From positions 310,001 to 374,000 of the forward strand of contig JAVSMP010000001.1 of the NCBI GenBank assembly GCA_032027145.1: DNA of 64,000 nucleotides. Direction: 5' to 3'. Position 1 is the first letter of the stretch. Each line of letters starts with the position of its first letter. Below, piece by piece: positions 8,139 to 63,044 of this stretch. The stretch comes from Ignavibacterium sp. (GTDB taxonomy: Bacteria; Bacteroidota; Ignavibacteria; Ignavibacteriales; Ignavibacteriaceae). A model generated the notes under the pieces. It saw nothing but the letters and a program-made list of their open reading frames with translations, had not been told where the DNA came from and did not search any database. Made by a program: the position numbers and the translations under genes.

Positions 8139-11100
8139 TTACCCCACTAACTCATCCGCAATCAATTCAGCTTGCTTCAAAACTGTATCAATTGCTTTCT
8201 GCTGCTTGTCCGGTGGATAACCATATTTTGTAAGTGTTCGCTTTACTAACACCATTAGTTTTGCTCTTGCACTTTCTCGGATTGTCCAGTCTATCGTTGC
8301 ATTCTTTTTTACTTTGTCAGCAATATCTCTTGCAATTGTTTTTAACACTTCATCACCCAAAACTTTTACTGCACTATCATTAGTTTCAAGTGCATCGTAA
8401 AAGGCTAATTCAGCTTCAGACAACCCAAGTTTCTTTGCATCTTCATCTGACGACTTAACTTCTTTTGCAATCCTTATCAGCTCTTCAATAATCTGTACAG
8501 TGGTCAGTAAGTTGTTCTGGTATCTCTTAATTGCAGTTTCCAGCATCTCTAAAAACTTTTTGCTCTTTACGATATTAGTTCTTAATCTCGATTTAATTTC
8601 ATCATTCAAAATTTTCTTCAACAGTTCGAGAGCAAGGTTTTTATGAGTCATCCCCTGAACTTCCTGCAAAAACTCATCTGATAAAATTGATAGATCAGGT
8701 TTTTCAATTCCTGCTGCAGCAAATATGTCAACAACTTTATCAGAGCTTATCGCCTGATCAACTATCATCTTAATAGCTGTGTCAAATTCTTTTGCAGTTT
8801 TTCCCTTGCCTTCAATTTCAAACTTAACCAATCTTGCTTTCACTGCCTGGAAGAATGCAACTTCTTCTTTTATCTCCATCGCTTGCGGATGCGGCATTGA
8901 TAAAGAAAATGCCTGACTTAACAATGTTACTTCCCTGATAAATCTCTCTTTTCCTTTTTCCAATCCAAGAATATGTTCTTCTGCTTGAAGAATTATCGAA
9001 AGTTTTTCATTCGGCGTACCTGTGAAGAAACGATTGTAATTAAACTTGAATTGTCCTTTGTAATAAGCCTCCGGCTCTTCAACCAAAATATCTTTTTGTG
9101 TTTTACTCTCTTCATTAAACATCTGTTGGACTATCTCCAGTTTTTCCATCATCACTTCAACAGCTTGTTCAATATCTTCTGTCGGATCACCTTTGCCGCC
9201 CGAATCAGAATAGAATGACAATGCCTTTTTCAAATCAGTTGCAATGCCGAGATAGTCAACTACCAATCCACCCGGTTTATCTTTGAATACACGGTTCACT
9301 CTTGCAATAGCCTGCATTAACGAATGTCCACGCATTGGCTTATCAATATACATTGTGTGAAGACAAGGAACATCAAATCCTGTTAGCCACATATCAATCA
9401 CTATTACAATCTTCAGAGGGTCATTCGGGTCTTTCATTCTGTCTGCTAAATCTCTTCGCTGCTGTTTTGTTGTATGATGTTTTGCAAGAACAGGACCATC
9501 TGAACTCGCAGCAGTCATTACTACTTTTATTTTTCCCTTTGCCAGATCTTCATTACACCATTCCGGTCTTAATGCAACAATCTCATTAAATAACTCAACT
9601 GCAATCCTTCGACTCATAGCAACAATCATTGCTTTACCATCAAAAACATTCTGACGTTTTTCAAAATGATCAACAATATCCCTTGCTAAATTTTTTATTC
9701 GCTTCTCATTTCCAACTATTGCTTCAAGCTTTGACCATTTTGCTTTTGCTTTCTCCTTTTCTGTAATCTCTTCATCACGTTCAAGCTCTTTGTCAAATTC
9801 TTCTATTAAATGTTTTCCTTCTTCATCAAGATTTACTTTTGCCAACCTGCTTTCATAATAAATTTTAACCGTTGAGCCGTCTTCAACAGATTTAGCTATA
9901 TCATAAATATCAACATAATTGCCAAACACCTGTGGAGTGTTAATATCCGTTCCTTCAATCGGAGTTCCGGTAAATCCAATGTAAGTTGCATTCGGTAATG
10001 CATCACGCATATACTTCGCAAATCCATAAGCTATTCGCTGACCAACCACCTCTTTACTTTCTTTATTAACTATATCTTTTAACGATGCCTGAAATCCGTA
10101 TTGTGTTCTGTGAGCTTCATCTGCAATTACAATTATGTTGCGTCTGTCTGAGAGCTGATCATAAACTTCTTGCCCTGTGTCGGGTAAAAACTTTTGAATG
10201 GTAGTAAAAACTATTCCTCCGCTTGCAACTTTTAGCAGTTGTTTTAGATGATCTCTGTTTTCTGCTTGAACGGGTTCTTGTCTTAACAATTGTATTGAAG
10301 AAGCGAATGTATCAAACAACTGATCATCAAGATCATTCCGGTCAGTGATTACAACAATTGTTGGATTTTCCATTTCAGGTGATGTTATAAGTTTACCAGC
10401 ATAGAAAACCATACTTAAACTTTTTCCTGATCCTTGTGTATGCCATATAACTCCTGCTCGTTTATCGCCAGAGTTACCCTCACCTCTGTCCTCTCCCATA
10501 GGGAGAGGAAGTGCGGATGATATAGTTTCTAGAACAGACTTTGTATTGTTTAGTAGTTCTTCATTCTTAAATCTTAATACACGATTACCAAGTGACGATA
10601 AGTATTTGTCTCTTTTGCTATCGTGTTTTTGTTGTTCCTTTGAATTATGAATCTCACCATCGAATTCAATAATGAGTTTATGTTCATTACAGTAGAAGTC
10701 AGCCACGTAAGGACCAATTTGATGCTGCCGTCTGAATTTCAGATTTAAAAATTTTCTATTTCGGATTAACTCCCAAAATATTTCTTCAGCTTTCGTCTGA
10801 TTCTTCCTGAGTTCTCTCGCCTGTTCTATTAGTCCACTAAATTTAAAACCACCACGATAATTTCTCTTGCTTTCTGTCCTATTTCCCTCCCTTTGGTAGG
10901 GATTATGGGAGGGTTGATAGCCAATTGCCCTGATAGTGCTATCAATAGCTTTGTTGACTGCATAGTACTGATGATATGCTGCTAATATTTTTTCTGTATG
11001 TATCTGTAATACACCCTCACCTTGTCCTCTCCCAGTGGGAGAGGATTTAGGAGTGGGTTTCATATACTTCTGAAAGACGATAAAGTTTCTTGTTATATCA

Positions 11101-11834
11101 AGGAGAGTTTTTGGATTTAACATTCCGCTGATGAGTGTTTCTAACTGTGGTTTGAAACGCGATGCCTCTTTCTCTCCTTCAGCACTTTTCCAGGCAGTGA
11201 AACGATTAATTCCTGCAGATACACTACCTGCTTTACATTCCAGTCCATCCGATATTACACAAACAGCATTATATGTAAACAGTCCTGGTATTATTGCTTT
11301 GTAAGTTTGTATCTGGTTGTAAGCGGATTCTATTGTTGCGCTTTCATCTGCAGGATTTTTTAACTCGATAACAACTAAAGGAATACCATTAACAAAAAGT
11401 AAAATATCCGGACGTTTGTTCTGGTTGTTTTCAACGATTGTGTATTGGTTAACAACAAGAAACTGATTGTTTTCAATATTTTCAAAATCTATTAATGCAA
11501 TTTCGTAGCTTCTCTCGTAGCCATTCTGCTGATAAGGTATTTTTACTTTCTCAATTAGCTCTTTATGAAATGTTTCGTTGTTGTGAAGAATGTCCGTTGA
11601 ATAAATGCGTAGTATTTTTTGTATTGCCTGTTCCTGTGCTTCTTTTGGAATGTGGGAATTGATTACTGAAACTGCTTTGCGTAAACGATCTGTTAAAATT
11701 ATCTGTTCGTAGTTCTCGCGTTCGGCTTTTTCTCCTTCCGGTGAAATTACCGAGCCGTGAATATATTCCCAGCCGAGTGATTGAAGCTGTTCAATTGCTG
11801 CTTGTTCTACTTTATCTTCGGTGATGGGTTTCAT
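8139..11834 (-). CDS. hsdR: Type I restriction enzyme R subunit (HsdR) with an inserted DUF559 nuclease domain
   Basis: Motor and nuclease subunit of a type I restriction-modification enzyme; it binds the HsdM-HsdS core, translocates DNA using ATP and cuts it. The N-terminal PD-(D/E)xK nuclease shows Asp143 and Glu157-Leu-Lys159. The Walker A motif (TQGSGKS) is at about 466-472, the DEAH box at 572-575, and helicase motif VI (QAIARVNR) further on; a helical C-terminal domain follows. At 1231 aa it is well above a usual ~1050. The excess is at two sites: a short in-frame repeat at about 261-277, and about 150 residues (304-455) holding a complete DUF559 domain just before Walker A. The flanking blocks TIRAI and [16 protein letters not shown] would otherwise join directly. 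The frame is intact, so the enzyme may be functional, but this is untested. Confidence 0.95.
10474..10916 (-). mobile_element. DUF559 nuclease-domain cassette inserted in frame within hsdR
   Basis: The insert encodes a complete DUF559 (MTES/Vsr-like) endonuclease domain at HsdR residues ~335-440. Conserved family features are present: [31 protein letters not shown], the E-x-D-G-x-x-H motif (Glu390, Asp392, His396) and RVLRFKNEE. It is bordered on the N-terminal side by a repeat encoding [12 protein letters not shown] (10882-10916) and on the C-terminal side by one encoding [12 protein letters not shown] (10474-10508). Each border holds a small GC-rich palindrome with an outward GGGAGGGTT- or GTGAGGGTA-like tail, and the two lie in opposite orientation. 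Their similarity to each other is modest. The length, about 440-460 bp, is close to that of the GxxExxY cassettes elsewhere in the window. Mobility is inferred. Confidence 0.65.
11011..11048 (-). repeat. In-frame palindromic repeat in hsdR, ACCCTCACC...GGGAGAGG family
   Basis: A 19-bp hairpin, CCTCTCCCA-g-TGGGAGAGG (11026-11044), preceded by the CCCTCACC tail. It is translated as [11 protein letters not shown] between FQKYM and KILAAYHQY, two segments normally close together in HsdR. The same repeat family occurs at 10474-10508 in a different reading phase and, with small changes, in hsdM at 15783-15817. Confidence 0.75.
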
Positions 11835-11841
11835 ATTAATT

Positions 11842-12306
11842 GTCAGAATCAGAATTCACTGAATTTTAGAATTTTCAGAATTTTTATCTGAATATTTTGG
11901 ATTAAATATCAATTTGTACTGTAAACTTTGTGAACCGAAATTAATCAACAATCCTAATGGAAAATCATAAGCTACTACATAATTCTTTGCTTGTGCAATA
12001 TGAACATCCTCAAGATTTACTAATGCTTTTAATTCAATAATAACTTTATTTTCAGCTACAAAATCTGCTCGTCTTGTTCCAACCTCTATTCCTTCATAAT
12101 ATATCTTTTGTTCTTGTTCTCTTGCAAATTCAATATTAGCTCTTTCAAGTTCGATTGCCAAACATCTTTGATAAATTACTTCCTGAAAACCTGGTCCCAA
12201 AGTATTATGAACCTTCATTGAGCAGCCAATTATTTTATATGTTAGATCATCTTTTTCCATTAAAATATCCTGTTAATCCTTTAATCCTGCAAATTCTGAT
12301 TCAGAC
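11842..12306 (-). mobile_element. GxxExxY cassette 1, bordered by ~40-bp imperfect inverted repeats
   Basis: Two 40-bp sequences in inverted orientation (11842-11881 and 12267-12306) agree at 29 of 40 positions by eye; both begin GTC[AT]GAATCAGAATT. They enclose a single gene. The left repeat supplies the last codons and TGA stop of the enclosed gene; the right repeat supplies the end and TGA stop of hsdS plus an AGGAT ribosome-binding site for the enclosed gene. The element therefore fits exactly between hsdS and hsdR, ending 8 bp from the hsdR start. The ATCCTGTTAATCC..CTGATTCAGAC border belongs to a type of short dispersed repeat I know from Bacteroidota genomes. Movement as a unit is inferred. 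Confidence 0.6.
11856..12260 (-). CDS. GxxExxY family protein (PD-(D/E)xK nuclease-like)
   Basis: Small protein of 134 aa named for its signature, here Gly24, Glu27 and Tyr30. The family's predicted PD-(D/E)xK-type site is complete: Asp66 in RRADF and Glu76-Leu-Lys78 in VIIELKA, followed by Gln in IAQAKNY and the family's LLINFG strand. The biochemical role is not established; a nuclease or nuclease-derived function is inferred from the fold. It sits between hsdS and hsdR in the same direction, so it would be co-transcribed with the restriction system. It is unlikely to be a normal part of that system because the identical arrangement occurs far away at 62.6 kb, outside any RM locus. Confidence 0.88.
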   Translation of the reverse strand: MEKDDLTYKIIGCSMKVHNTLGPGFQEVIYQRCLAIELERANIEFAREQEQKIYYEGIEVGTRRADFVAENKVIIELKALVNLEDVHIAQAKNYVVAYDFPLGLLINFGSQSLQYKLIFNPKYSDKNSENSKIQ

Positions 12307-13560
12307 ATTTTTCACTCTTATTTCTCCACTCATCAACTTGGGTAATAGTGTATCCCGTAGTTGTGTGAGTGTGCGGATTTGGTTTTGATTAAATTCTATT
12401 TTATTAAGTATTGATTCAAATTCATTTTTATAAATTTCTAATTTATCTCTTGGTGGAACTTTGAATGAAATACTTTTAAGACCAACTATTGTAAGAGCTT
12501 CTTGTGTACTTCCAATAGTTATTGATGCGAGTTGTTCTTTTCCAATTATTGAATTTAACCAGAGATATATTATTGAGCTTGGGAGTAATTTGAAATCTTT
12601 AAACCAAGTTAAGTTCCCATCTTTGAAATAAAATTTGTCATCCTTTCTTACTCTGTATGTGACACCCAGAGTACCAACCGAAGTCATTAATATATCGCCT
12701 TCTCGTGGAGCTCCAAATTTTTCTTGTATTTCATTAAACCTTTCTTCCGAAATGAATAATTCGCTATCTGTACTTCCTGCATTATGCAATTCAATAATTT
12801 CCTTGCTTCTATAAAATGGTACACCAAAAGAAACATATTCAGAATAGTAAATTCGTTTACTTGAAGTAATAGTAAGTATTTCTCCGAGTGTCTTTTCCTC
12901 CCAACTCTCATCTGCTTTAATATTTCCCTCCCTTTGGGAGGGATTATGGGAGGGTTGAGGTCTCTCCTCAATAAACCACTGCCTGAAAAGTGTTTCTGCA
13001 AGTGCTTCAAGTGTTTTGTTTTGGCGGTGGAGGAAATCTATTTTGTCATCTAAACTGCTGAGGATTGAGGTGATAGATTGTTGTTCAGGCAAAGTTGGTA
13101 ACAGCAAGGGAATACTTTCTACAACTTTCCTTTCAGCAATATTTATCTGCACGGAGCCGTGAGAGACTTGCGATATCAATTCCAATCCCATTTTTGAAGA
13201 AAGAAAATAGTATAAATAATCTAAAAATACTTTTTTTACATCTGGTCTTAATATGAGTAAGGCTTGACTTATAATTCCTTTCGGATCTTCTTCCTTAATT
13301 ACTGAAATTTTTCCAAAAGTACCTGAACAACTAATAATCAAATCATTCGTTCTTACTTGAAATCTTTTAAGTTGTTCAAATTTTTCTTCGTCAATAAAGA
13401 AACGAAATTCTCTAGAATTGTAAATTGCATTTTTCTGTTCATAAACTGGGATACCATTTGTTTTCATTTCTCCTCGCAGTAGTGAGGAGCCAAACGGTCC
13501 ACGAATATATCCTTTTGGTTCTAACAATTCACCTAACGAAGTTTTTTTCCACTCACCCAT
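12301..13560 (-). CDS. hsdS: Type I restriction-modification specificity subunit (HsdS)
   Basis: DNA-recognition subunit shared by the methylase and restriction complexes. Two target recognition domains are visible, each opening with the usual Trp/Leu-Gly-Glu pattern (WKKTSLGELLE; WEEKTLGEILT) and each followed by a conserved helical spacer: LPEQQSITSILSSLDDKI near residue 160-180 and KIEFNQNQIRTLTQLRDTLLPKLMSGEI at the C-terminus. Residues ~201-214 (QPSHNPSQREGN) between the first spacer and the second recognition domain are an in-frame dispersed repeat. The length of 419 aa is normal. The stop codon lies in the border repeat of the GxxExxY cassette, so the last two or three residues may have changed on insertion. 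Confidence 0.94.
   Translation of the reverse strand: MGEWKKTSLGELLEPKGYIRGPFGSSLLRGEMKTNGIPVYEQKNAIYNSREFRFFIDEEKFEQLKRFQVRTNDLIISCSGTFGKISVIKEEDPKGIISQALLILRPDVKKVFLDYLYYFLSSKMGLELISQVSHGSVQINIAERKVVESIPLLLPTLPEQQSITSILSSLDDKIDFLHRQNKTLEALAETLFRQWFIEERPQPSHNPSQREGNIKADESWEEKTLGEILTITSSKRIYYSEYVSFGVPFYRSKEIIELHNAGSTDSELFISEERFNEIQEKFGAPREGDILMTSVGTLGVTYRVRKDDKFYFKDGNLTWFKDFKLLPSSIIYLWLNSIIGKEQLASITIGSTQEALTIVGLKSISFKVPPRDKLEIYKNEFESILNKIEFNQNQIRTLTQLRDTLLPKLMSGEIRVKNV
12923..12958 (-). repeat. In-frame CCCTCCCtttGGGAGGG repeat in hsdS
   Basis: A 7-bp palindromic stem CCCTCCC/GGGAGGG (12926-12942) followed by ATTATGGGAGGGTTG. It is translated as QPSHNPSQREGN. The copy in hsdR at 10882-10916 differs by only a few bases and is read in the same phase ([12 protein letters not shown]). 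In hsdS it sits in the inter-domain linker, a place likely to tolerate extra residues. Confidence 0.8.
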
Positions 13561-13580: not shown

Positions 13581-13673
13581 GTCTGAACTGTGATTTTTAT
13601 GATTAAAGAATTTGCCAGATTATTATTATATAAATCACAGAAATCATTTAATCCCATAAATCCCGGTTCAGAC
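13581..13673. repeat. Solo inverted-repeat element between the DUF1016 gene and hsdS
   Basis: GTCTGAACTGTGATTTTTAT (from 13581) and an inverted partner ending in CCCGGTTCAGAC (13631-13673) face each other with a short middle. The outer GTCTGAA matches the outer end of the GxxExxY cassette 1 border. It looks like an empty, gene-less member of the same repeat class and would fold into a long imperfect hairpin in the mRNA. The 68-codon frame spanning it (13553-13759, GTG start) has no recognisable features and I do not call it a gene. Confidence 0.6.
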
Positions 13674-13758: not shown

Positions 13759-15411
13759 CTACTGACTATTATTTAATTGTTCTATTCTCTGATAGATATC
13801 TTCTACAATCCATTCAGCAAATACTTCAGCAAGTTTAGAAACCTCAACACCTTCGGGGATTTGATGATACAACTTTTCAATAAATACACCTGCAACTCCT
13901 TCAACCTCACAAGTATAACTATAGTTACCAAGTTGAATGGCTAATCGTTTATTTATATCAAAAGCCCGGATTCCCGCCTTCTTAAAACCGTGTAACTGAA
14001 CTTCAATTTTCATCGTGTGACACCGAAACCGGAGGCTGTTTTGAAGGTGACTCGCTGCGTCTTCATCGGTTTGATGCCCCTGACTATCAGTCCAGATAAA
14101 AAAATCAAAGCTTTCGAACAAAGGGATAACATCTTTCTTAAGTGACTCATAAATATTTTGCTTTAGGGGTAGAACAAACTCTTTGAATACTTTCGAAGTA
14201 TTTTCCGGAGAAAGTTTTTCTTTCACCTCTTCACTTTTTAATCCACTGAGCAGCTGTTTTAGCTTATTTAACTTTTTATCAATTGGTTTTACCAATTTCT
14301 TAACTTCAATTTCCATTGCTTCTTCTAATTCTTCAACAGTAGGCAATTCCCTTATTATCTCTTTTGGTAGTTTGTTACTAATCGTATATTCAGCAATGCC
14401 CATAGGTTTTGAACTATTACGCAACGCATATTCTACAACCATTCCATCTTTTGTTTTACATAAAATTAATCCTATGCTTTGCTCGTCATCCTTGTTTTTC
14501 AGTTGTTCATCAGCTAGACTGAGATAGAACTCCATCTTACCTTTATATTCAGGTTTAAACTCATCAATCTTAAGATCAATCACGATATATCTTTTTAATC
14601 TGGTATGATAGAACAATAGATCGAAATAATATTCCTTTTCACCAAGCATAATTTTGTATTGCCTGCCCATGAACGCAAACCACTCACCTAGTTCCAGCAA
14701 AAACTTTGTCATCTGATTAGTCAGGGCATCTTCAAGATCCCGTTCAGTTGCTTCTTTCCCGAGATAAACAAACTCAAACTTATATGGATCTTTAAAAACT
14801 TGCTGAACCAATTCAGAATTTGAAGGTGCAATAGTTGTTACAAAATTGGTTTGAATTTTCCCTTGCCTTTTGTGCAGCTCAGATTCAATCTGGTGAATCA
14901 TTACATTTCTACTCCAACCGTTTTCTATAGTTTTCTCTATGTAGAAAAGACGAATCTCCGGATCTTTAACTTTATCAAGCAGTGTTGTGTGATGATACCA
15001 GCTTAATTGTGCAAGTGTGCCCTGCACAAATTTACTTTTATCTGCTTTTTCCAATTGTGCAGGCGACACCTGCACAATTTCAGAAGCTTTGATTTCTCCC
15101 TGATTTAGCTGTTTTTCTGATAGGTTTTTGAAGTTTGGGTAAGCATCAGCAAATGCCCTCATATATTTTAGATTTCTGACAGACAATCCTTTCATATCTG
15201 GAAATTCTATCCTTAAATCGCTGGACAATCTATCAATAACTTTAGTGCCCCAACCTTCAGTTGCCTGCTGTTCAATGATAGTTTTACCAACTTCCCAATA
15301 AATTTCCAACAGTTGAGTATTGACTGAATAGACAGCCTTCGTTCTGGCTGATAGAATTTTCTCCTTTAGCTGTTTTAAAATTTCTTGATAATTTCTGGGA
15401 AGGTTTGTCAT
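13759..15411 (-). CDS. DUF1016/YhcG-family PD-(D/E)xK nuclease with an extra C-terminal domain
   Basis: An N-terminal DUF1016 helical domain (about 1-180; [32 protein letters not shown]) is followed by the YhcG-type PD-(D/E)xK nuclease domain, with Asp264 in YYFDLLFYH and Asp279-Leu-Lys281. Such proteins frequently sit inside type I RM loci; their role there is not settled. Usual members are about 340-380 aa. This one is 550 aa because ~185 residues follow: a Glu/Lys-rich coiled-coil-like stretch (360-420) and a domain with [12 protein letters not shown] and [20 protein letters not shown] that I do not recognise. The start overlaps the hsdM stop by 4 bp, so translation is coupled. Two related palindromes lie in frame near residues 113-135. 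Confidence 0.9.
15007..15077 (-). repeat. Two in-frame 23-bp palindromes, 48 bp apart, in the DUF1016 gene
   Basis: TTGTGCAGG-cgaca-CCTGCACAA (15055-15077) is a perfect 9-bp hairpin, and TTGTGCAAG..CCTGCACAA (15007-15029) is a close relative with a 7-bp outer stem. They are exactly 16 codons apart and are translated as VQVSPAQ and VQGTLAQ. Family members normally have a single VQQxVAQ-like sequence here, so one copy looks like an in-frame duplication of the palindrome. Confidence 0.6.
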
Positions 15412-62568: not shown

Positions 62569-63044
62569 CAATAGAACACGGATAGCGCAGATTACGCTGG
62601 TTCACACGGATTTTCGATCATTTGAAAATACTTTTCTCTTAAATTCTGCTTTCTTTCCAAAATTTAATAATAGACCGACTTCAAGATTTGTTGCTTTTAG
62701 ATAATTGATCAGTTGAGCTTCATGTTCTTCACATAAACTTTCAGCAGCTTTTAATTCTACTATTACTAAATCTTCGACTATTAAATCTGCAAAGTAATCA
62801 CCAACCTCAAACTCATTATAAAACACTTTGACATTTTTCTGCTGATCAACTTTTAGATTTGCTCGCCTAAGTTCAATCTTTAAAGCATTTTCATAAACCT
62901 TTTCTAAGAATCCATAACCAAGAGAATTATAAACTTTATAATAAGCTTCAATAATTTTCTTTGTAATATTTTCGTGCAGCATATAAATCCTCCTGTTTTT
63001 AATCTGTGCAAACCCGCGCAATCTGTGTCATCCGCGTTCTATTG
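62569..63044 (-). mobile_element. GxxExxY cassette 2, bordered by ~45-bp imperfect inverted repeats
   Basis: Border repeats at 62569-62613 and 62997-63044 are imperfect inverted copies: CAATAGAAC[AG]CGGAT then CAGATT[AG]CGC[TG]GGTT, ending in CACGGATT or CACAGATT. They enclose one gene whose last codons and TGA stop lie in the left repeat, as in cassette 1. The unit fits exactly between the 3' ends of gpsA (10 bp away) and the dGTPase gene (8 bp away), so it damages neither. AATCTGTG..ATCTGTGTCATCCGCGTTC belongs to a common class of dispersed repeats. The border sequences differ from those of cassette 1, but the architecture is the same. Confidence 0.65.
62602..62982 (-). CDS. GxxExxY family protein (PD-(D/E)xK nuclease-like)
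   Basis: 126 aa from the ATG at 62982, which follows AGGAGGATTTAT; a frame reaching to 63021 has no ribosome-binding site and runs into the border repeat. The signature residues Gly24, Glu27, Tyr30 and the predicted active-site residues Asp66 and Glu76-Leu-Lys78 have exactly the same numbering as in the protein at 11.9-12.3 kb. Gln in EAQLINYLK and LLLNFG also match. Overall similarity is typical of distant family members, so the two are not a recent duplication. Function unknown. Confidence 0.88.
   Translation of the reverse strand: MLHENITKKIIEAYYKVYNSLGYGFLEKVYENALKIELRRANLKVDQQKNVKVFYNEFEVGDYFADLIVEDLVIVELKAAESLCEEHEAQLINYLKATNLEVGLLLNFGKKAEFKRKVFSNDRKSV

Follow-up and report, generated by a model that had tools for sequence, protein, structure and literature searches.

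Two intact GxxExxY genes lie in the window (the whole 64,000-nt stretch of DNA analysed here), each between two inverted arrays. Cassette 1 (11842..12306, minus strand; recognised by its inverted repeat and TIGR04256) extends tip to tip between hsdS and hsdR, and its GxxExxY (PDDEXK_3) gene, an ORF of 134 aa matching TIGR04256 and PF13366, occupies 11856..12260 on the minus strand. The inverted-repeat search places the downstream arm at 11838..11885, where it holds the GxxExxY stop codon, and the upstream arm at 12263..12310, where it holds the hsdS stop codon. Cassette 2 (62569..63044, minus strand; inverted repeat and TIGR04256) lies in the gpsA-dgt intergenic region, and its ORF (62602..62982, minus strand) encodes 126 aa from the ATG, with TIGR04256 scored from 62614. 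The arms of cassette 2 found by the same search, both inverted arrays of the CACGGAT class, lie downstream at 62569..62612 and upstream at 63001..63044, the latter also carrying a pattern match (G000:373025-373043). The two arms are 73% complementary over 48 nt in cassette 1 and 80% complementary over 44 nt in cassette 2, each pair is the top-ranked inverted repeat in the stretch searched, and the borders of both cassettes are runs of roughly 10-bp units. The first-pass annotation had described a small PD-(D/E)xK-like gene between inverted repeats in both cassettes, with the stop codon within the border repeat; the intact genes confirm the former, and the ORF and arm coordinates confirm the latter. 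A gene-less element with two 46-bp inverted arms (13581..13673, score 20) carries the GTCTGAAC tip as in relatives of cassette 1; it was sought because of this resemblance, which was judged by eye, and a coarse hairpin scan of the whole window picked up no element, including this known one.

GxxExxY proteins and other small-protein families

Both GxxExxY proteins score far above the cut-offs for TIGR04256 (135 bits for cassette 1 and 140.6 bits for cassette 2; cut-off 35) and PF13366 (128.4 and 145.3 bits; cut-off 22). PDDEXK_3/GxxExxY is the sole profile match in cassettes 1 and 2, with no Y1 tyrosine (IS200/IS605-like) transposase found in either. The conserved residues of the cassette 1 protein are E27, D66, E76-x-K78, and Q90xxxY94; across 20 GxxExxY sequences, E27, D66, K78, Q90, and Y94 are invariant and E76 is nearly so. 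The AlphaFold model of this protein has a mean pLDDT of 91, and its predicted fold best matches SSO0001 in the PDB (4ic1; E 7.5e-5, TM about 0.5), with a weaker match to lambda exonuclease, while a sequence search for relatives of solved structure gives nothing significant (best E 0.71). The active-site residues and the modelled fold identify GxxExxY as a predicted PD-(D/E)xK nuclease of the RecB/Cas4-like kind. The family is patchy, being present in 45 of 59 genomes (139 matches, 96 of them fetched). Three other roles were considered and rejected: an anti-phage defence gene (PADLOC gave 0 families for both proteins), phage cargo (0 matches of the cassette 2 protein against 50,697 phage records), and plasmid cargo (8 matches of the protein of locus L001 against 72,556 plasmid records).

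The window also holds a DUF559 domain inserted in-frame in HsdR (about 10476..10919, minus strand), recognised by alignment and PF04480. The insert comprises 148 residues (about 306-453), PF04480 covers residues 337-442 of the 1231-aa HsdR, and in the alignment of 12 HsdR relatives, ten aligned relatives have 1-30 residues at this position. The DUF559 borders are GC-rich palindromes of ~23-34 bp. A separate border palindrome, found from inverted and direct repeats and the alignment, lies in-frame in HsdR at 11025..11058 with no nuclease, and a 38-bp copy of the border repeat, found as a direct repeat, lies within hsdS at 12921..12958 (97% to 10880-10917). The domain can occur in-frame inside both HsdR and MetH, shortly before the GSGKS motif in the former and before ATVKGDVHDIGKN in the latter. 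Its borders score at least 17 at 10 of 23 loci and exceed the 99th percentile of mismatched pairs at just two of the 23, and on these counts DUF559 was rejected as a case of the GxxExxY layout. The layout that the first-pass annotation saw in three cassettes holds for cassettes 1 and 2, with their arrays of ~10-bp units; DUF559, a palindrome-bordered in-frame insertion, is a looser parallel. GIY-YIG borders score at least 17 at 10 of 25 loci, at least three of these 10 resembling terminators or a tRNA stem, and exceed the 99th percentile at 4 of 25; by eye, GAGCGnAGTCGA-type palindromes occur in 6 of the 25 loci and a GAGCTTGTCGA variant in two. For the four-helix genes, which carry 7-bp arrays in relatives of this genome, 7 of 25 loci exceed the 99th percentile. 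Loci too near contig ends were excluded (four-helix 5/30, DUF559 8/31, GIY-YIG 3/28), and GIY-YIG L404 and L407 (of 30) and DUF559 L039 (of 32) were left out of the counts.

Inverted borders, array classes, and repeat abundance

Strong inverted borders (score at least 17) occur at 119 of 165 GxxExxY loci and at 0 of 464 other positions within the same loci, a pseudo-position control that covers GxxExxY loci alone; none of 29 gpsA control genes reaches this score. Inverted borders are far commoner by these genes than elsewhere in the loci, the opposite of what the first-pass annotation had named as counting against its idea. The score is below 15 at 33 of the 165 loci, and under a harsher null, in which the arm of one locus is paired with that of another, just 30 of 92 and 30 of 72 loci exceed the 99th percentile. 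Loci too near contig ends are excluded from these sets (4/96, 8/80, and 11/176 for GxxExxY; 1/30 for gpsA). The borders are built of degenerate, roughly 10-bp units arranged in arrays, which fall into several sequence classes; the ~10-bp period is modest in autocorrelation, with its peak at 9. The bracketed layout recurs across many phyla. Concerted evolution between the arms was considered and set aside, since concerted matching in 21 of 35 ortholog pairs is a weak result and the measure is biased towards the effect.

The class of the array follows the protein. On a protein tree of 168 rows, of which 101 are class-labelled by regular expression and 67 are unlabelled, the array class changes 21 times, compared with a mean of 63.4 and a minimum of 57 for shuffled labels; the covariation of flank repeat family with protein clade, anticipated by the first-pass annotation, is thus found for GxxExxY. 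With same-genome and same-site pairs removed, the share of pairs whose arm score is at least 20 is 0.4-1.8% where protein identity is below 50%, 76% at 70-80%, and 97% above 80%. A Mantel test of arms against proteins over different-genome pairs, same-site pairs included, gives 0 of 300 permutations. Two or more array classes occur in 17 genomes. Of the 45 genomes with GxxExxY, 38 contain the cassette 2 repeat pattern and 7 lack it, whereas none of the 14 genomes without GxxExxY has it (Fisher 8.7e-9); the reversed control pattern has one match across all 59 genomes. At clade level, based on the part of the loci fetched, the median repeat count is 11 in 13 genomes and 2.5 in 32 (p 0.004), and two genomes with 81 and 26 matches (G045 and G036) have no cassette 2-like gene in the loci fetched (1/4 and 1/3, respectively).

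Gene-less copies, cassette-free sites, and cassette exchange

Gene-less elements of ~88 bp, with both arms and no gene, occur in GxxExxY-bearing genomes (L250, L259, L265, and L266). The copies examined carry no gene ends, unlike the deletion in G005, where both arms are kept around an internally deleted GxxExxY gene. Presence and absence at orthologous sites show that sites without a cassette exist, so the lack of empty sites in related genomes, which would have weighed against the first-pass proposal, is not what we found. Junctions were examined at 21 of the 30 returned loci for the gpsA site and at 14 upstream junctions for the HsdR site. No target-site duplication was recognised among the loci compared, which included no near-identical empty site. 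No strain-level pair of empty and filled sites was found; both loci are filled in the closest flank pair, which is 95% identical. Several cassette sites, hemE-hemN among them, are common to distant genomes, so movement may be rare.

At one Flavobacterium site, three cassette types alternate between similar flanks, with flank identity up to 95% where the cassette proteins are 64% identical. The search covered 199 genomes, 198 with a match, and 70 loci were taken (30 returned and 40 requested), 66 of them with both flanks. A cassette is present in 30 of these 66 chosen loci, which is not a frequency because the 30 best were mostly filled and the 40 were picked mainly for sites at which the match was interrupted by the cassette position. 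Among 26 intact ORFs, array classes X, Y, and Z correspond to protein groups with no exception, and a fourth class, W, is close to X in array and protein alike. In three loci (L286, L290, and L297), Z cassettes are followed by X- or Y-like remnants, as judged by eye, which places the remnants of older cassettes next to newer ones.

Proposed explanation and comparison with known systems

We consider it probable that GxxExxY cassettes are minimal selfish elements, RAYT/REP-like and with miniature derivatives, in which a nuclease takes the transposase's place. Such a cassette would be about 450-530 bp long, with a RecB/Cas4-like PD-(D/E)xK nuclease gene flanked on each side by an array of about three or four ~10-bp units, the two arrays being inverted relative to each other, and gene-less derivatives of ~88 bp would accompany it as MITEs accompany an insertion sequence. 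The nuclease would recognise its own array class, as one unit per helical turn or as a single-strand arm hairpin, and would cut at its own array or at the target; host repair or replication would then copy the unit into intergenic gaps. The cassettes would thereby be mobile, and the repeats would depend on the nuclease. Bracketing, class-clade covariation, and gene-less copies together give the cassette the look of an undescribed, very small kind of mobile element, and term searches of the open-licence literature, mostly at listing level, found no description of a GxxExxY-array element.

Environmental genomes commonly carry short intergenic repeats, many of which have no known maker. A nuclease family with a clade-following array class is a concrete candidate, and the question is open to laboratory work with a ~130-aa protein and ~40 bp of DNA. 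If true, the explanation would add a way for gene-sized units to move without a transposase, together with small sequence-linked nucleases that are possibly useful. More tentatively, there might be a class of transposase-free mobile units, each a very small protein with its own inverted repeat arrays and one grammar per family (~10-bp units for GxxExxY, 7-bp units for the S23-type four-helix proteins, and GC-rich palindromes for DUF559 and GIY-YIG), and many of the short intergenic repeat families in environmental bacteria might originate from this class.

It is somewhat unlikely that GxxExxY is a homing-type gene, with the nuclease cutting gene-less arrays, the gene copied in via arm homology, and the arrays spreading otherwise. 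Gene-less and gene-bearing forms do have a common arm structure, one cassette takes the place of another at the Flavobacterium site, and PD-(D/E)xK is among the homing endonuclease families listed in PMC6083498. However, we found no array that is empty in one genome but, in a close relative, occupied by a cassette of the matching class, and homing leaves unexplained that the gene-less arrays spread too. We regard as unlikely a trapped passenger nuclease inside MITE-like arrays that are moved by an unrelated transposase or host recombination. Because the arms and the gene travel as one, even a passenger gene would be expected to covary with its arms through linkage alone, and part of the observed covariation could be due to such co-inheritance. 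The array tips are also commoner away from the gene, with three of the 33 pattern matches in G000 at GxxExxY cassettes. Against a passenger stand the lack of the cassette 2 repeat in all 14 genomes without GxxExxY, the identical gene family and layout across phyla, and the unseen mover that every array class would require for itself.

That the arms are kept for a long stem in the transcript, as in 23S rRNA intervening sequences (IVSs), with the nuclease incidental, is highly improbable. The cassette is similar in layout and size to the 428-nt IVS of Coxiella, which has an S23p ORF and heptamer repeats (PMC4990558), and G-U mismatches exceed A-C mismatches at 55 loci, with the opposite excess at 33. 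However, the pooled sense-strand counts over 119 loci (G-U 235 vs. A-C 200) do not reach significance in the wobble test (p = 0.10), on which the stem was rejected, and the arm class follows the protein clade, which a stem would not need. Least probable of all are ordinary host genes, with the arrays serving a chromosomal nuclease as operators or terminators and the gene-less copies arising by decay, a reading that fits the sites common to different families (hemE-hemN) and the arms retained in G005 but not the missing gene ends of the examined gene-less copies, the patchy presence, or the alternation of different cassettes within similar flanks.

The selfish-element explanation draws its closest comparison from RAYT/REP, in which, according to PMC2817692, the gene lies between two inverted repeats, the repeats coevolve with it, and repeat abundance is tied to its presence. 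GxxExxY gives a similar result for bracketing, coevolution, and abundance, the last for one class only, so the RAYT/REP parallel of the first-pass annotation stands for this family and is looser for DUF559. In contrast to RAYT, an IS200/IS605-type transposase, the GxxExxY enzyme is a RecB/Cas4-like PD-(D/E)xK nuclease by prediction, and its repeats are degenerate ~10-bp unit arrays whereas REPs are single short palindromes. The 23S rRNA IVS, as described in PMC4990558, is a unit of about 430 nt with a small S23p (four-helix bundle) ORF and inverted and tandem short repeats. The GxxExxY cassette is similar in unit size, small ORF, inverted repeats, and short tandem repeats beside the ORF, but encodes a nuclease, has ~10-bp units, and is not associated with rRNA in the 14 loci scanned with Rfam, which returned one tRNA alone. 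Like insertion sequence/MITE pairs, GxxExxY has long gene-bearing and short gene-less forms with the same kind of ends; unlike insertion sequences, the cassettes have no transposase and no recognised target duplication. Free-standing homing endonucleases (PD-(D/E)xK, EDxHD) are likewise small nuclease genes entering conserved places, as DUF559 does in HsdR and MetH, but there is no intron or intein here, and to our knowledge homing endonucleases are not characterised by inverted arrays or gene-less copies. Rickettsia palindromic elements are palindromes inserted in-frame in coding genes, as are the DUF559-border palindromes, some of whose copies here, unlike those elements, carry a nuclease domain.

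Inverted borders and repeat classes of GxxExxY genes

The window corresponds to G000:C1:310001-374000 of the source genome, G000, a single contig of 3.67 Mb. The first-pass annotation had claimed nuclease genes between inverted repeats for cassettes 1 and 2, and both indeed hold an intact gene of the GxxExxY family (PDDEXK_3, a small predicted PD-(D/E)xK nuclease) in such borders. Cassette 1 (11842-12306, minus strand) lies between hsdS and hsdR, with the hsdS stop codon inside its upstream arm, and cassette 2 (62569-63044, minus strand) lies between genes that we take to be gpsA and a dgt-like gene. A gene-less element at 13581-13673 has a tip resembling those of cassette-1 relatives. A YhcG/DUF1016 nuclease gene was also seen at 13759-15411, within the type I restriction-modification locus, and its PADLOC match is the candidate system PDC-S02.

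The first-pass observation is real and extends beyond the window. The family is present in 45 of 59 genomes (G000 and its relatives) with 139 matches, several interrupted by stops; G000 itself has seven, part of them decayed, and six of these have inverted borders. Border tests covered 96 of the 139 matches and the best 80 of 559 candidates from named genomes, and 165 loci with sufficient flank entered the counts. The results show strong inverted borders (inverted-repeat score of at least 17) at 119/165 GxxExxY loci, compared to 0/464 other positions within the same loci and 0/29 control gpsA genes, so such borders are far commoner at these genes than at the control positions. On a harsher null that pairs the arms of one locus with those of another, 30/92 and 30/72 loci in two sets exceed the 99th percentile (23.4 and 22.4), which is high because loci of the same class match one another. 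The arms consist of degenerate units repeated at ~10-bp spacing, CACAGAG, CGCAAAG, CACAAAG, CACGGAT and CACGAATT among them, and their autocorrelation rises modestly at 9-12 bp with a peak at 9. Inverted borders are the rule for the GxxExxY family.

Array class, the sequence type of these units, tracks the protein clade. With same-genome and same-site pairs excluded, arms are similar in ~1% of pairs below 50% protein identity, 76% at 70-80% and 97% above 80%. The proposed check of flank repeat family against protein clade gave 21 class changes on a FastTree tree (101 labelled rows of 168), compared to at least 57 in each of 200 shuffles, and two or more classes stand side by side in 17 genomes. 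Linkage of arms and gene would also yield covariation, which thus demonstrates a unit, not recognition.

Gene-less elements of ~88 bp with two inverted multi-unit arms are found in G000 at 47.3 kb and 1,057 kb, and twice in G003. Of the 33 matches in G000 to the tip pattern of the cassette-2 class (CACGGAT), three lie at GxxExxY cassettes. The pattern is present in 38/45 genomes with the family and 0/14 without it, the latter from three families (p = 8.7e-9, which overstates independence because the genomes are related), while the reversed control pattern has one match across all 59. Median matches are 11 in the 13 genomes where a cassette-2-like gene was seen, 2.5 in 32 with other GxxExxY genes and 0 in the 14 with none, a partial clade-level comparison that rests on the subset of loci fetched and in which G045, with 81 matches, is anomalous. 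Separately, cassette-2-class half-arrays repeat ~2.6 kb apart in similar surroundings at G000:C1:552550-566150 and 895200-898650.

Sites with and without cassettes

The suggested search of relatives found sites without the cassette for cassette 1, cassette 2 and a third G000 cassette (L003). Among 21 junctions read, gpsA and dgt are adjacent without cassette 2 in G005, G001, G003, G016, G018 and G034; the spacer carries another repeat in its place in the first three, measures ~55 bp in G016 and is shorter than 10 bases in G018 and G034. On a short contig of G004, a GxxExxY gene adjoins the gpsA end. The spacer repeat at L101, L102 and L103 is a different hairpin, GTCATTGCGA...GAAGCAATCT-like, at the position of cassette 2. 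Among 14 junctions at the cassette 1 site, hsdS runs directly to hsdR in G036 and G011, and a GxxExxY gene occupies the same place in G038 and one G033 locus. The L003 site is filled in G002, lacks the cassette in G001, retains both arms around a deleted gene in G005, holds other DNA (>2 kb between matches) in G003 and is interrupted by contig ends in G004. Six GxxExxY cassettes (L027, L028, L031, L032, L036 and L056), from six genomes of three families and of different array classes, share a place between genes that are presumably hemE and hemN.

In many genomes of Flavobacterium (the genus of L207), the sequence match stops abruptly at the boundaries of the cassette. GxxExxY is present in 30/66 selected loci with both flanks and absent in 36/66, and the neighbouring genes are just 12 and 32 bp apart at the two shortest sites. 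The site has array classes X, Y and Z, which match protein groups (57-69% identity between groups, 74-98% within), and the class W protein is 76-86% identical to X, with similar arms. In pairs of different class, the flanks are 91-95% identical while the cassettes are just 59-67% identical, so the cassettes have been exchanged and did not simply diverge. By eye, what follows the class Z cassette of L290 reads as the end of a class Y cassette (its final codons and arm), and class X-like arms follow class Z cassettes in L286 and L297. Several of L302-L313 carry at this site an unrelated gene flanked by TTTCAGGTTTCAAG-type repeats, a possible further array family.

DUF559 genes with palindromic borders

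The DUF559 piece (~10476-10919, minus strand) is an in-frame insert of 148 residues within HsdR that terminates shortly before the GSGKS motif. It is found in G000, G038 and G022, while the corresponding stretch is 1-30 residues long in ten aligned relatives, one of them (L132) read from a broken frame of 576 aa. In the G022 HsdR (L135), GIY-YIG and DUF559 are both inserted in-frame in one protein. In the window, copies of the DUF559 palindrome without the nuclease occur in HsdR and HsdS. In nine further genomes (L340, L342, L343, L344, L346, L348, L349, L350 and L352), DUF559 lies in-frame in MetH immediately before ATVKGDVHDIGKN, adjacent to the B12-binding motif and accompanied by palindrome-derived peptides; the identification of MetH as B12-dependent methionine synthase comes from Pfam for L346 and from the same sequence motifs for the other eight. 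The first-pass annotation had grouped DUF559 with the two cassettes. The similar layout stands, but the borders are palindromic, the placement is in-frame and 10/23 loci, fused ones included, score at least 17 in the border test; DUF559 is therefore a cousin in layout and not the same element. Elsewhere, GIY-YIG genes form tandem runs of three to five copies equal in score and spacing (G000:C1:1733881-1734727), with similar runs at G006:C1:2945594-2947066 and G024:C1:120132-122135.

The enzyme and known systems

The conserved GxxExxY residues are E27, D66, E76-x-K78 and Q90xxxY94, and QxxxY is a mark of the RecB family. The predicted structure (pLDDT 91) has the Cas4-like SSO0001 (4ic1) as its nearest PDB entry, followed by lambda exonuclease. 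We consider it reasonably probable that the GxxExxY cassettes are mobile units, the most likely reading, whose catalytic step we infer.

The portions of the open-licence literature seen give no account of GxxExxY in connection with mobility (the passage found is unrelated to it) and never place DUF559 together with 'inverted repeat'; PDDEXK_3 is not mentioned in that literature, and the main text of a prokaryotic MITE review has no word starting with 'nuclease' or 'RAYT'. Novelty beyond this literature is not proven. For comparison, the features of REP-associated tyrosine transposases (RAYT) are those given in PMC2817692. The four-helix bundle genes (TIGR02436/S23) of G000 relatives (L369-L397) also lie between inverted arrays, here repeating every 7 bp, as autocorrelation maxima at 7, 14, 21 and 28 show; 15/25 have inverted-repeat scores of at least 17. 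These 7-bp arrays agree with the heptamers preceding S23p in the Coxiella IVS.
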